From Microbacterium resistens NBRC 103078 (GTDB taxonomy: Bacteria > Actinomycetota > Actinomycetes > Actinomycetales > Microbacteriaceae), in the NCBI RefSeq assembly GCF_001552355.1, contig NZ_BCRA01000016.1, forward strand, positions 1 through 64,000: DNA of 64,000 bases, written 5' to 3'. The position numbers were made by a program, and so were the translations under genes. Each line of letters begins with the position of its first letter. Positions within the stretch are counted from its first letter, which is position 1. The notes under the pieces are model-generated. The model was not told where the DNA came from and made no database searches. It saw only the letters and a program-made list of their open reading frames with translations. Of the stretch, positions 58,460-63,074 are shown one piece after another.

Positions 58460-58624
58460 GGGTTGCGCCGGGAGTCGCGCGACGCCTGGACCCGGCGACT
58501 CAGACGCTATTGCGCGCCCGCCCAGGGCGGCCGCCGCACGGCGACCATGCTTCGCTCCACCATGCCCCCAACCGCGAACCGCCCCCGTTCTCCTCGGAGA
58601 GGTGGGGTCAGTTTCGTCGTTTGC

Positions 58625-58867
58625 TCATGAGTGAGGCGGGGAGTTCACCTTAGCGGCTCGATAAGACCTCGTCATGAGGAGGTACCAGCCCAACATCGCG
58701 ATCACCGCGACGGCATAGAACCATACCCGGAACTCGTCGAAGACATACCCCATCCAGACGCCTGCCACGAAAACCACCAATGCGGCGATGGTGGCGAGGA
58801 GGTGACTTGTTGGGCGGGTGATGGTCCGGAACCAACCGTTCGACGGACCTGCTGATTGTGCAGTCAT
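58625..58867 (-). CDS. Small two-helix membrane protein
   Basis: This 80-residue protein has transmembrane helices near residues 23-42 and 47-65 and a basic tail. The DNA is visibly lower in GC than the preceding genes, marking entry into an accessory island. No family was recognised. Confidence 0.55.
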   Translation of the reverse strand: MTAQSAGPSNGWFRTITRPTSHLLATIAALVVFVAGVWMGYVFDEFRVWFYAVAVIAMLGWYLLMTRSYRAAKVNSPPHS

Positions 58868-58963
58868 GATCGTATTTACCCTCCGACGTCTATCGGCACG
58901 GAGCCTCGAGGTAGGTGTCGACCCACCAGACGGGAGGCACAGCGGGCGCCGTAGTCAGGGTAA

Positions 58964-59218
58964 CCTGGACGCACCTCTTCGGATTCGAGTTCTCTGCAAC
59001 ACCAGCGTTGTAAGCCAAAACCACACCGGCCGCGATGCATACGCTGCCCCGGCTGGATCTCCGAAGCGCCCGGGTACTCCTGGGACACGAAGGCGGCACT
59101 CGCTGGCCAGGACGTCCCGGTGAAGGTCAACGACCACACCCTGAATGGCTGCCGGTACGTCGTCGCGACGACCGACTCGATGTGGCGGCCAGCGCTGAAC
59201 TGGACGCTCGCGGCCTGA
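58964..59218 (+). pseudogene. 3' remnant of a truncated plus-strand gene
   Basis: The frame ending at TGA 59216-59218 lacks any start codon. Its last 55 codons have strongly G/C third positions, and it encodes a natural-looking tail including GYSWDTKAALAGQDVPVKVN and CRYVVATTDSMWRPALNW. It is probably the end of a disrupted gene. A 69-residue minus-strand frame (58890-59099) overlaps the region and is an alternative, less codon-biased reading. Confidence 0.4.
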
Positions 59219-59219
59219 G

Positions 59220-59615
59220 CTACCAACCGTTGGCGACCTTCGGGAGCTGGTCGTCACACAACACGGTCGCGCTGCCGATGATCATGTTCGCCGCGACAAT
59301 CTGCGCGAATCCGTTGCGCGTGAACTGGTCCTCGATCTCTGCGGGTTTGACGCCCGACTCGAGCGCCAGGCACACGCTGTGCCCGACCGCGATGATCTCG
59401 TCGTCGCTCTGCCCGGCGATGGCCTCGCCCAGCTCGGCCCGCGCTGTCTCAACGAGGGTCGCTTCACGCACGGCGGCGCTGATCGTCGGCTCCGGCGTCG
59501 GTGTCGCGACGGCAGCCGTGCGCGTCGGCGTCGGCGTGCTTGCGGTGGCTGGCGCTGAGCATCCGGCGAACGCGAGCACGGCTGCGAGAGCGGCTGGGGC
59601 TACGAGACGACGCAT
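59220..59615 (-). CDS. DUF732-like secreted lipoprotein
   Basis: This 131-residue lipoprotein has a signal and lipobox FAGC near residue 19, then a Thr/Pro linker. The small helical domain has IIAVGHSVCLALESG and a second Cys in VLCDDQ, the Cys-pair layout of DUF732 proteins common in actinobacteria. Function is unknown. It ends 2 bp past the remnant on the other strand. Confidence 0.72.
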   Translation of the reverse strand: MRRLVAPAALAAVLAFAGCSAPATASTPTPTRTAAVATPTPEPTISAAVREATLVETARAELGEAIAGQSDDEIIAVGHSVCLALESGVKPAEIEDQFTRNGFAQIVAANMIIGSATVLCDDQLPKVANGW

Positions 59616-59704
59616 GCGCTCAGCGTAGCGGCCCTACGGCCGCGCATTCTTCCCGGCGCGATGCCGGGTAGGCCCCGTGATGGGCTCTCACGAAAGGGGC
59701 CGTG

Positions 59705-59884
59705 ATGCCCAGAGAACAGATCACGCACAACCGGATCGAGGAACGCTCGATGCCGCGGCGGTCCTACGCCGGGGACCAAGCGGACGCCGAGATCCGCGAC
59801 CTGCTGAAGCACGCCGAGGAGGAGGCCGCCGCTGCTGCACGAGCGTACGAGCACATCGGTGAGTACGCGACCAAGAGCCACTAG
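59705..59884 (+). CDS. Small charged helical protein
   Basis: This 59-residue hydrophilic protein has a C-terminal helix DLLKHAEEEAAAAARAYEHIGEYATK. AAAGGGG lies upstream of ATG 59705. It has no recognised family; similar short proteins occur on phages and islands. A 46-bp perfect palindrome follows it. Confidence 0.5.
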   Translation: MPREQITHNRIEERSMPRRSYAGDQADAEIRDLLKHAEEEAAAAARAYEHIGEYATKSH

Positions 59885-59937
59885 GTGTATTGACCCGGAT
59901 CGTTGTTGACGCAAGAGAGGGCTCCGCGGTCGAGTTG

Positions 59938-59983
59938 GAGCGGGCTAGGTGTAGTGCCCATGGGCACTACACCTAGCCCGCTC
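59938..59983. terminator. 46-bp perfect palindrome between convergent genes
   Basis: Two 23-base arms beginning GAGCGGGCTAGGTGTAGTGC meet without a spacer. It lies 1 bp from the stop of the minus-strand immunity-like gene and after the small plus-strand gene, so it fits a bidirectional terminator, though perfect arms of this length are unusual. Confidence 0.75.
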
Positions 59984-59984
59984 G

Positions 59985-60497
59985 TCACATGTAAGTGTCG
60001 AACTCCTTGCTCTTCTCGGACGCGATGATCGTCTGCTCGGTGACGCCTTCGGGAGGCGTAGGCCAGATGTCGACGAGGTATTGATCCGGTGCGGTCTCTT
60101 CCACACGCTCGGGCTGGGGAAGGTCTCGTCCGCGGCCGAGGACGCGGACGCCATACGTCCCGGGGCCGGGGAGGAGGTCCGGCGGGATCCTGATCGCATC
60201 CGAGCTCTGGGGGACCAGATTGCCGCTCGGGGAGTCGATGGTGGTGATCGCCATGTCCTCCCACTCCGTCATGTCCGCCTCCGGCGGCTCCGTGTCGAAG
60301 ACACGGATATGGACGCGGACGTAGCCGGTGTGAGTGGGCGTGAGAATCGCGAAGCGATCCCGGTGATCGAGGCTCTCGACGAGGATGCCGCCGATGGTGC
60401 GGGTTCGGTCCTCAGGCGGGATGCCGTCGTCGGCGAATGGCCCGAAGTTCAGCTTCGAGTACCAGGTCTTCATGCGTTCTTCGACGTGCTCGATCAT
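59985..60497 (-). CDS. Candidate immunity/inhibitor protein for the NucA/NucB nuclease
   Basis: This 170-residue acidic cytoplasmic protein has no signal. Its beta-rich layout includes YVRVHIRVFDTEPP, EDMAITTIDSPSGNL, GPGTYGVRVLGRGRD and APDQYLVDIWP. The pattern resembles actinobacterial orphan proteins and, loosely, ComJ/Nin, the inhibitor paired with NucA in Bacillus. Its ATG overlaps the nuclease stop codon by 4 bp, so it is made with the nuclease. Role as inhibitor is inferred from pairing. Confidence 0.6.
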   Translation of the reverse strand: MIEHVEERMKTWYSKLNFGPFADDGIPPEDRTRTIGGILVESLDHRDRFAILTPTHTGYVRVHIRVFDTEPPEADMTEWEDMAITTIDSPSGNLVPQSSDAIRIPPDLLPGPGTYGVRVLGRGRDLPQPERVEETAPDQYLVDIWPTPPEGVTEQTIIASEKSKEFDTYM

Positions 60498-62095
60498 GAG
60501 ACCTTCACCTTGTACTTGTCGTTCACGATGACACGCATCGCCCGGTAGAAGCTATTGAGCTGGTCGCCGCCCTTTCCATTTTGCACGCCGTCGACCTGGC
60601 ACCGGCTGAAACCCATCGGACCGGACCCGGGCACGGCCGCCCATCGGCATCCTGCGAAGACGCGGGCGTCGCCGCCGGAGGCGGCGCCCTGGTTACTCGA
60701 CGCGAACGGATACTCGTCGCACTGGAAGCCGGGATCGCGCTTCAGGCTGGACGGGCATGCCTTGTTCCGGTTCCTGTCGATTACCGCCGAGCTTGCTCGC
60801 GTAAGGTCGCTCGTCAAGCCCGAGTTGATGGCCTTCGAGACATGAAGCGCCACACCGGATGCTTCACCCAGCCAGAGAAGGGTGAAGACCGGGACGACCT
60901 GGGGGAACACGCAGCCCTTCCCGCTCAGTTGCGGGGTGTTGTTGTCGCAGCGCGGAACAACGCTTGTGGTCGTGTACTTAGCTGCCTTGTCGATCCCCGG
61001 GGACGTGATCGTGTAGCCCCAGCCCGATACGACATTGTTGGCGTTCCCTGTCGGAACGTCGCCGACGACGGTACCTGTCATCGACGTCCAGGAGCTCGAG
61101 CCGACGAAAGTTGCGCTGCCCTGTGCCGAGTAGCAGTTGAATCCGCAGAGCGGCTGGCCGCTGTAGGTAAATGCTCGCCCGATGGCCACGCCTGTAGTCG
61201 CGCTAATTCGGACGTATGCGTTGCTGTCGATCTTGGTGGTGTTGCTGTTGGTTCTGGTCGTAGCGTGCGAGACTCCGACCGTCGTGAACGATCCGATAGT
61301 CTGCCCGGTGCGGTTGACGAGGCGCGACACCACGGTGTTGCTGGCACACGCCTGGATGCGGGAGATGTACTTGGTCTTGGTCGCTGTCGCGCACCCAGAA
61401 GGGGGCGCCGTGCTCGCCGTAGCGTCGACGCCGGAATCGGAACCGTCATCTTCCTCCGGGACCTCCTCCTCGGCAAGCGGAGCCACGACGCCGCCGGCAG
61501 CAGCACACTCCTGCAAGCCCGCGATCGCATCAGACCCAAGCTCAAGCTCGCACGCTCCTGCTGCGGCGATCAGTTCCGGATCGGGCGCCTGGAACTCACT
61601 GCGGAGAGGGGCGGAGCCACCTCCGAGCAGCTCTTCAGGGTCGATGCCCGCTCGCTCGAACTCCGCACGTGCCTCCGGGGTGAGTTCGTCCGCCGAGATG
61701 TCTGCGACCAGAAACTGCACCTCGCCCAGTCCGGGCACGGTCACAGAGTCCTTACCGTCCTGGTCCACCTGAACTGCGCCGTCTCCCGCTTCCGGATCCA
61801 CATAGAACTCGCCGAGCGGCGAGTCAAAGATCTCGACGCCGAGCTCCTCGTCGAAGCTGACCCGCTCCAGCGACTGGTCGGGATCGGCTCCGATCGAATC
61901 CAGGTATAGCTCGCCGTTGTCCCCGTCGAGCGAGTCGTACTCGGCGTCCTGATCAGCATCAGCAGCCTGATGACCATAGGAAGTGCCCGAGGCAGCGGGC
62001 GCGGGATGCGCCGATGCGAGCAGGGGTGGTGCACAGAGCCCCAGCGTGAGGCCTGCAACTGCCGCGGTGACGGAAAGCCGTCGCAGTGTCTTCAT
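60494..62095 (-). CDS. Secreted protein with C-terminal NucA/NucB nuclease domain
   Basis: This 533-residue protein has a Sec signal peptide (residues 1-29), an acidic Asp/Glu-rich propeptide-like region (40-225), a Cys-containing beta-rich domain (about 235-420) and a C-terminal nuclease domain (about 445-533). The nuclease domain has CDEYPFASSNQGAASGGD at 459-476 and ends RAMRVIVNDKYKVKV, the signature of deoxyribonuclease NucA/NucB. It is probably exported and cleaves DNA of competitors or in the environment. ATG 62095 is used. It lies in a lower-GC island. Confidence 0.8.
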   Translation of the reverse strand: MKTLRRLSVTAAVAGLTLGLCAPPLLASAHPAPAASGTSYGHQAADADQDAEYDSLDGDNGELYLDSIGADPDQSLERVSFDEELGVEIFDSPLGEFYVDPEAGDGAVQVDQDGKDSVTVPGLGEVQFLVADISADELTPEARAEFERAGIDPEELLGGGSAPLRSEFQAPDPELIAAAGACELELGSDAIAGLQECAAAGGVVAPLAEEEVPEEDDGSDSGVDATASTAPPSGCATATKTKYISRIQACASNTVVSRLVNRTGQTIGSFTTVGVSHATTRTNSNTTKIDSNAYVRISATTGVAIGRAFTYSGQPLCGFNCYSAQGSATFVGSSSWTSMTGTVVGDVPTGNANNVVSGWGYTITSPGIDKAAKYTTTSVVPRCDNNTPQLSGKGCVFPQVVPVFTLLWLGEASGVALHVSKAINSGLTSDLTRASSAVIDRNRNKACPSSLKRDPGFQCDEYPFASSNQGAASGGDARVFAGCRWAAVPGSGPMGFSRCQVDGVQNGKGGDQLNSFYRAMRVIVNDKYKVKVS

Positions 62096-62397
62096 TTGTT
62101 CTCTTCTCAATCAGGTGGGACTCGCCATGAGCCCAATACGGCTGTTGCCGGACCCGCCAGGTTGGTTACACCCGAATTGCACAGTGCGCGCCGCCATCAC
62201 CGTGACCACATCCGCTGTGCGCTTCCCGACCGCGGCGCCTCGTCAGGCGCTTCGGGTTATCGAGACGGAATCTGAAGGGATCCTGGCCGACTTCTTCGAC
62301 GACCGGCTAAACGCCGACGACGCAGAGTCGCGGGTAGGAAGAAGACCGCTACTTCCGCCCTCGAGAGGGTTCGCCGTTGTACCGCTATGGTCGCCGC
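62096..62397. other. Region upstream of nuclease gene, no clear gene
   Basis: A plus-strand frame from ATG 62127 to 62408 (93 residues) has a weak GGTGGGA site and a short stretch with coding-like codons (ILADFFDDRLNADDAE), but no family resemblance; it may be a gene remnant. The nuclease promoter should lie here, but I cannot place it. Confidence 0.3.
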
Positions 62398-62574
62398 ATG
62401 GACCCTGATACCAGCGCAGCCCTCGCGACCCTCATCAGCATCGGACTGTCGCTGCTGGGCGCGCTCCTCGGCGCGCTGATCCTGTACTTCATTATTCGGC
62501 AGGGGGTGTTCCACGGGATGCGAGCGCATACCCGGTGGATTGACCACGGCAAGGACTATGAGAAGCTCCGGTAG
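62398..62574 (+). CDS. Small single-pass membrane protein
   Basis: This 58-residue protein has a transmembrane helix at residues 9-33 and a C-terminal charged tail ending DYEKLR. ATG 62398 lies 6 nt after TATGGT, a typical leaderless start in this window. Function is unknown. Confidence 0.55.
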   Translation: MDPDTSAALATLISIGLSLLGALLGALILYFIIRQGVFHGMRAHTRWIDHGKDYEKLR

Positions 62575-62624
62575 CCGCTGAACGGCTACTTTTCACGGCC
62601 GCGGCCCGTTCCTCTTCCATCGAC

Positions 62625-62879
62625 GTGTTTGTGACGTTCTGGGCGCGGAATCGTCTTCGGGTGAGAACGGCCGGGGGAGGTCTACTGGAGCCGCTCACCC
62701 ATGATGCCGCCTGGCAACGGTTCGACGATGTCGCCCTGCGGATCCTCGTGACCTCGCCGATCGTGATGGCCGGGCAGAGGCTGAACGGGCCGCCAACCCA
62801 GAGCGTGGAGAGAAAACGACACGTCAACAGCACGATCACCCAGGTGCAGAATACGGTGCAGACGACCGAAGGGTCCTGA
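62625..62879 (+). CDS. Unidentified small protein or gene tail ending inside a terminator
   Basis: This 84-residue frame starts at GTG 62625. Codons from about residue 33 on have strongly G/C third positions; the first third does not, so the 5' part may be foreign to the frame. The peptide includes VALRILVTSPIVMAG and ends TITQVQNTVQTTEGS. The stop lies within the stem of the terminator hairpin. No family was recognised; it may be a truncated gene. Confidence 0.4.
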   Translation: MFVTFWARNRLRVRTAGGGLLEPLTHDAAWQRFDDVALRILVTSPIVMAGQRLNGPPTQSVERKRHVNSTITQVQNTVQTTEGS

Positions 62880-62899
62880 CCAGTCGCTGGTCAGGACCC
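62871..62899. terminator. Terminator hairpin
   Basis: GGGTCCTGACCAG-TCG-CTGGTCAGGACCC is a perfect 13-3-13 hairpin that includes the stop codon of the preceding frame. Confidence 0.8.
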
Positions 62900-62949
62900 C
62901 TCGCCTTCCGCTTGATCCCGCTCCGCGCAAGCCCGCTCCGTCCGAGAAT

Positions 62950-62989: not shown

Positions 62990-63074
62990 TGGTGGCAAGT
63001 GAGGGATTCGAACCCCCGAAGCATTACGCGGCTGATTTACAGTCAGCTCCCTTTGGCCGCTCGGGCAACTTGCC
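62990..63074 (-). tRNA. tRNA-Tyr(GTA)
   Basis: This class II tRNA on the minus strand has acceptor GGCAAGT/ACTTGCC, anticodon arm CTGACTGTAAATCAG with anticodon GTA, a variable arm and T-arm GGGGGTTCGAATCCCTC. CCA is encoded at 62992-62990; the body is 62993-63074. Confidence 0.95.

Follow-up and report, generated by a model that had tools for sequence, protein, structure and literature searches.

A NucA/NucB-family nuclease gene in Microbacterium resistens and its overlapping neighbour, a candidate immunity gene of predicted ComJ/Nin fold

Introduction

In Bacillus, the gene for the nuclease NucA (ComI, PF14040) is paired with that for its inhibitor Nin (ComJ, PF11033). The structure of B. 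subtilis ComJ/Nin is available as PDB 4MQD, and lysate assays showed Nin to inhibit both NucA and NucB, by a mechanism still open in 2017 (PMC5758888). Zhang et al. in 2012 defined a class of Tox-ComI toxins with Imm-ComJ or Imm-SUKH as immunity proteins, and suggested a toxin–immunity pair as the ancestor of the Bacillus genes (PMC3482391). Actinobacteria are among the groups in which Tox-ComI was listed; the Imm-ComJ row names proteobacteria, bacteroidetes, cyanobacteria, firmicutes, and viridiplantae, and no Actinobacteria (PMC3482391). A further protein of similar fold is CgnJ of crocagin biosynthesis (PDB 6I86), for which our search of the open-access literature found no paper treating it. 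CgnJ has no known nuclease partner.

Here we describe a gene pair in a 64,000-nucleotide stretch (the window) of contig NZ_BCRA01000016.1 of Microbacterium resistens NBRC 103078. As in the Bacillus pair, a nuclease gene is followed by a gene for an inhibitor-type fold, the nuclease has a NucB-like predicted fold with a DE pair, and the model of the partner matches 4MQD. Unlike in Bacillus, sequence comparison does not identify the partner as ComJ, the nuclease protein includes a beta-rich domain as well as an acidic stretch, and the pair is found in Actinobacteria, in a stretch of lower GC content, with relatives on plasmids. An actinobacterial NucA/NucB nuclease with a ComJ-fold or SUKH neighbour resembles the Tox-ComI systems with Imm-ComJ or Imm-SUKH, which were already known (PMC3482391); the partner family differs from Imm-ComJ as listed there in being actinobacterial and in lacking a convincing Pfam match in the members scanned. 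New here is a partner family of Actinobacteria, with the fold predicted for it and the range over which it occurs; a search of the open-access literature, mostly of listings, found no description of that family. The work links unannotated actinobacterial proteins to the fold of a known inhibitor, brings fold and operon evidence to the published idea of a toxin–immunity origin for the Bacillus competence pair, and provides a directly testable candidate weapon and antidote.

Samples and Alignments

Distribution within the window's family was surveyed in 398 genomes, the window's own included. A class-level search matched the nuclease in 31 of 394 genomes, and genome contigs scanned for a single conserved pattern yielded 306 nuclease relatives, the best 80 of which were retained; we take the host genera of these 80 to be actinobacterial. 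The 100-locus sample consists of 20 of the 48 places found by the class-level search and the 80 contig-scan relatives, and is a selection in which several loci come from one genome or repeat earlier ones. Partner alignment A1 holds 20 family members (L040, L043, L047, and L049 left out), and A3 holds 45, including 44 of the 53 partner references from L100–L179 (L122, L143, L147, L149 in two pieces, L158, L176, L177, and L178 left out). Nuclease alignment A4 has 45 rows, namely the ORFs from 44 of the 80 contig-scan loci and the window protein.

Results and Discussion

Layout of the Gene Pair

The nuclease ORF runs on the minus strand for 533 codons from an ATG at 62095 to a stop at 60496–60494, and the partner ORF for 170 codons from an ATG at 60497 to a stop at 59987–59985 (Table 1). 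The original prediction of a 533-residue protein with a C-terminal NucA/NucB domain, coupled by ATGA to the next gene, was thus exact in its coordinates and is borne out by a Pfam match to PF14040. Read by eye, the nuclease begins with a signal peptide (a basic N-terminus, then a hydrophobic core, with small residues last), and the 170-aa sequence, read the same way, has none.

Table 1. Features of the gene pair and its surroundings, with positions in the window
Feature	Position	Strand	Basis
Gene for predicted exported NucA/NucB DNase, 533 aa	60494..62095 (stop included)	-	ORF and Pfam
Partner gene, 170 aa, predicted ComJ/Nin fold, candidate immunity protein	59985..60497	-	ORF and model fold
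ATGA stop/start overlap of nuclease and partner genes	60494..60497	-	sequence
Putative Sec-type signal peptide, residues 1-38 approx.	61982..62095	-	by-eye reading
Acidic, mostly disordered stretch, nuclease residues 39-235	61391..61981	-	composition and model
Beta-rich domain, nuclease residues 236-396	60908..61390	-	alignment and model
NucA/NucB nuclease domain, residues 397-533	60497..60907	-	Pfam and fold
D460-E461, predicted catalytic DE pair	60713..60718	-	NucB alignment and A4 rows
H418, aligned with NucB His	60842..60844	-	NucB alignment and A4 rows
N506, probable metal-binding Asn, start of last long helix	60578..60580	-	model and A4 rows
Lower-GC stretch holding the pair, 4.4 kb	58500..62900	.	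1-kb GC windows
tRNA-Tyr at edge of lower-GC stretch	62990..63074	-	sequence
46-bp perfect palindrome directly behind partner stop	59938..59983	.	sequence

The AlphaFold2 model of the whole nuclease has a mean pLDDT of 70; quality is poor as far as residue 132 and again in residues 158–180 and 203–226, and good in about 240–396 and 397–533. Residues 39–235 contain 50 D/E against 5 K/R and mostly score below pLDDT 50. A propeptide-like acidic region had been proposed here, and the acidity is plain; judging from the aligned sequences, however, it is no family trait of the nuclease relatives, since for 38 of the 44 in A4 coverage of residues 60–135 falls below one half.

The region before the nuclease domain, also predicted to be beta-rich, is so in the model (about 240–396), and residues 236–396 align in many actinobacterial relatives, with no corresponding Pfam family. 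In the structural search with the whole-protein model, the best match outside the nuclease was a COPI appendage at Z 8.6, followed by many more at 6–8; we take this as a common arrangement and did not accept these as homologues. A tblastn search of plasmids with the domain found nothing, and the Pfam scan recognised no delivery or entry domain in the 533-aa protein. Nuclease N-terminal regions vary, carrying either the beta-rich domain or LGFP repeats, the latter in three of six long nuclease-type proteins scanned (L155, L160, and L169).

Nuclease Domain

PF14040 (DNase_NucA_NucB) matches residues 445–530 with E=5.8e-8 and 33.6 bits, above its cut-off of 23.8, which places the protein in the NucA/NucB DNase family; its other Pfam match, DUF2686, fell below cut-off, and NCBIfam models matched neither the nuclease nor the partner. 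A direct sequence search of the PDB with the 533-aa protein reached NucB only at E=0.087–0.18. By structure, the nuclease part of the model aligns with B. licheniformis NucB at Z 16.6 (110 residues, 2.5 Å). DNase activity is a prediction from the family assignment.

Four positions at which changes abolished NucB activity (equivalents of His53, Asp93, Glu94, and Asn117; PMC5758888) can be compared here. H418, D460, and E461 line up with NucB residues in the PDB sequence alignment, and N506 is probably the equivalent of Asn117. Within A4, every member of which matches PF14040 at E<=0.01, D460 and E461 are each present in 45 of 45 rows, Asn is found at 506 in 43, and His at 418 in 40, the window protein included. 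Cysteines 383, 395, 447, and 459 occur in all 45 rows and Cys 483 and 499 in 24, a pattern that would suit an exported, disulphide-bonded enzyme.

Partner Protein

We detected no Pfam match at E<=1 in the 170-aa partner. Its AlphaFold2 model, built from 45 sequences, is confident (pLDDT 89.5, pTM 0.86) and shows a beta-rich protein with a single C-terminal helix, in agreement with the beta-rich character read earlier from the sequence. In a Foldseek search of the PDB, the four chains at E<=0.001 came from CgnJ (6I86, the best) and ComJ (4MQD), a pair from each. VIA-align gave Z 11.7 against 4MQD (126 residues aligned, 3.2 Å, 12% identity) and Z 11.2 against 6I86, and the next row dropped to Z 3.0. 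The parallel drawn earlier with NucA–Nin is therefore supported by fold, though unseen by sequence, because the model matches ComJ/Nin itself. The fold alone is no proof of nuclease inhibition, because CgnJ, by its title the product of a peptide-biosynthesis gene, shares it as closely as ComJ does.

Assignment of the partner to ComJ by sequence was tried and rejected: PF11033 was absent from the window's partner (P0002), the 20 members of A1, and the 45 members of A3. An hhalign comparison with a single ComJ sequence gave a probability of 1%, a PDB profile search with A1 had a best E of about 1 (chance level), NCBIfam gave nothing credible on family members, and no member scanned matched any Pfam model convincingly. 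ComJ was found neither in plasmids by tblastn nor, as PF11033, in the window's own genome. We do not file the partner as a PF11033 member; on its predicted model it is a ComJ-fold protein.

Distribution in the Family of the Window

Of the 398 family genomes, 10 contain PF14040 (at 11 places) and 31 gave a match to the partner profile. Both occurred in 6 genomes, the partner only in 25, the nuclease only in 4, and neither in 363 (one-sided Fisher p=2.3e-5). All six genomes with both carry them side by side (the window, G087, G129, G203, G301, and G365, with G203 divergent). G087 has two partner copies in tandem beside the nuclease, and three of the six (G087, G203, and G365) have a further partner copy elsewhere. 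Some matches in nuclease-free genomes are weak or broken (G149 at E=1.2e-4, G258 at E=1.1e-7, G006 in pieces).

In the four genomes with the nuclease only (five places), a different gene, of 191–223 aa, lies downstream; two of the five products match SMI1_KNR4 (SUKH-1) and three have no Pfam match. The two SUKH-1 proteins (L222:4123-4695 and L224:4396-4968) are encoded directly behind NucA/NucB genes, in family relatives without the ComJ-fold partner.

Two of the side-by-side pairs have peculiarities of their own. In G129 (L031:7659-8902) the nuclease gene is interrupted by an internal stop and its N-terminal part is unrecognised, and the partner gene is open. The G365 pair lies between transposase-like genes; the right one (L032:3159-4469) matches DDE_Tnp_ISL3, and the left one (L032:2-1000) looks similar by eye.

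Linkage in Wider Actinobacteria and on Plasmids

A partner-family gene lies beside the nuclease in 64 of the 100 actinobacterial loci, as counted with a profile iterated on those same loci (63 before iteration, 57 of them at E<=1e-8), and none is more than 1 kb away. Sixty of the 64 are downstream on the same strand, two downstream on the opposite strand, and two upstream on the opposite strand; 56 of the 60 are within 100 bases of the nuclease, which is the ComJ-type gene order. We regarded one profile match, within a 1394-aa frame (L025/L049), as a chance hit. The candidate immunity gene thus adjoins the nuclease and also occurs in tandem (G087) or without a nuclease (25 of 398 genomes), a trait of polymorphic toxins.

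The 36 loci without a partner-family gene have mixed contents. In two of them a DUF6924 protein follows the nuclease (L083:4548-4964 and L089:5496-5882), and at L176:2251-3117 a single protein carries DUF6924 behind a weak partner-profile stretch (E=1.5e-4 before iteration). DUF6924, on which our open-access literature search found no paper, may be another immunity domain. L096 may be a false nuclease call, because its match is to Endonuclea_NS_2 rather than PF14040. Other partner-less loci have doubtful ORFs or other genes downstream.

On plasmids, the nuclease was matched in 39 records (37 from Streptomyces) and the partner in 22 (16 from Streptomyces). Of two plasmid regions read, one (L248) has a partner match behind the nuclease, both annotated 'hypothetical protein', and the second (L249) has a NucA/NucB-annotated gene with a 'hypothetical protein' behind it. 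No phage matched the window's partner, and PADLOC gave no match.

Unusual small or long neighbours were also seen. At L154:4371-4814, in Propioniferax, the gene for a small protein of no clear family overlaps the end of a short nuclease gene and is possibly a further immunity type. In Nocardia and relatives (L162, L165, L169, L172, and L175) the partners are 358–363 aa long, having gained about 200 aa at the C-terminus relative to the others; the L162 protein, scanned singly, had no Pfam match.

Charge, Divergence, and Co-variation of the Partner

Partner proteins are strongly acidic, with a median net charge of -14 over the first 170 residues and negative values in 62 of 64; the median was +2 for 293 other ORFs of the same loci, predicted with a simple caller, of which 12 were as low as -14. 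For the nuclease part the median is +4, mildly basic, with values from -10 to 19, of which 49 of 64 are positive. Distances of nuclease and partner are correlated over 62 pairs (Mantel r=0.77, reached in 0 of 999 permutations), a figure confounded by shared species history, which can cause part of it. Mean identity is 28% among partners and 41% among nucleases, so the partner diverges faster; in the Microbacterium pair L106/L108 identity is about 76% for the nuclease and about 36% for the partner. The partner thus has the immunity-like character that had been suspected, being acidic, faster diverging, co-varying, present in nuclease-free genomes, and replaced by SUKH or DUF6924 proteins in a few loci.

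A Candidate Toxin–Immunity Module

The recurrence of the same pair in many actinobacteria is what makes it look like a toxin and its antidote. We consider it probable on balance that the operon is a module of toxin–immunity type, made up of an exported DNase and a ComJ-fold inhibitor, and such a Tox-ComI/Imm-ComJ-like module fits better than a plain scavenging DNase. Fold, gene order, and linkage together make a nuclease with its inhibitor very likely, that is, a protein with DNase activity that the partner binds and inhibits. The first gene would encode a DNase exported through Sec, whose C-terminal NucA/NucB (ComI) domain would cut DNA with a divalent metal by means of its DE, H, and N residues. 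The second would encode a cytoplasmic, acidic beta protein of ComJ/Nin fold that binds and blocks the nuclease, shielding the producer from enzyme that folds before export or re-enters, and the copies of nuclease-free carriers may protect against a neighbour's enzyme.

As to what the pair is for, we lean slightly towards use against competing bacteria. The earlier proposal of an interbacterial toxin–immunity cassette is strengthened by the immunity-like traits of the partner and by its linkage in 64 of 100 loci, and killing and entry into a target cell stay proposals. Against a toxin–immunity module count the missing sequence link to ComJ, the failure to recognise a delivery domain, and the lack of a partner-family gene in 36 of 100 nuclease loci, and a conserved operon would also be expected of a scavenging DNase with a safety inhibitor. 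That is the possible, less probable reading that survives best: the nuclease could be an exoenzyme that scavenges DNA or degrades that of biofilms, with the partner as the producer's intracellular safety catch and no role in competition. Bacillus NucB is described as a secreted biofilm-degrading nuclease (PMC5758888), and the Sec-type export suggested by the signal peptide and the failure to recognise an entry domain are what a scavenger would show. Such an exoenzyme sits poorly, however, with the 25 of 31 partner-carrying family genomes that have no PF14040 match, with a nuclease as rare and patchy as 10 in 398 family genomes, and with the lower-GC stretch, the plasmid locations, and the other partner types in some loci. 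Antagonism is favoured over pure scavenging because of these nuclease-free carriers and other partner types, the faster divergence of the partner, and the patchy distribution.

Two further readings seem very improbable. The pair has the same two folds and gene order as comI–comJ and might serve DNA uptake as in Bacillus, the nuclease trimming incoming DNA and the partner tuning it, but patchy, plasmid-borne genes and nuclease-free partner copies are ill-suited to an uptake complex. Alternatively the partner, as a beta protein of CgnJ-like or another kind, might share a transcript with the nuclease and leave it unaffected. Its match to CgnJ on a par with ComJ (Z 11.2 against 11.7, with the lower Foldseek E) and its copies without a nuclease would allow this, but its acidity, its co-variation with the nuclease, and the linkage found in 64 of 100 loci speak against a bystander.

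If the toxin–immunity reading holds, it raises the question of how a Sec-secreted DNase reaches the inside of another cell. That the beta-rich domain might take part in surface binding or in entry is a guess. Joining these strands, we offer as a speculative and rather doubtful picture a large unnamed actinobacterial family of ComJ-fold immunity proteins that acts in communities, nuclease-free carriers being protected against their neighbours' DNases, together with a beta-rich domain that is an undescribed binding or entry module bringing the Sec-secreted enzyme into other cells.

Genomic Surroundings

In 1-kb windows, GC content is 64–67% over 58.5–63.0 kb, compared with 70–77% over 50–58.5 kb and 73% at 63–64 kb. 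In a DNA comparison with eight genomes of the genus, the tRNA-Tyr stretch was matched in all eight and nothing between 58431 and 62973; the comparison alone is weak evidence of insertion, because the left flank was matched weakly and in four of the eight. None of these eight genomes has the nuclease; a match to the partner profile occurs in one, G258. The pair had been placed in a mobile island, and a lower-GC stretch adjoining tRNA-Tyr agrees with this; however, scans of three ORFs in the stretch recognised no integrase, and within 54.0–62.9 kb the tRNA stretch has no direct repeat of at least 13 bases, so that the idea rests on composition and patchy distribution. The stretch also holds a gene for a DUF732 protein (59220–59615) and small unknown ORFs.

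A promoter scan found no sigma-70 site, and a terminator scan gave 2 terminator-like sites against 1.3 expected. The palindrome behind the partner gene consists of two 23-nt arms with no loop and without a T run, occurs at one place in the draft genome, and is possibly a terminator.
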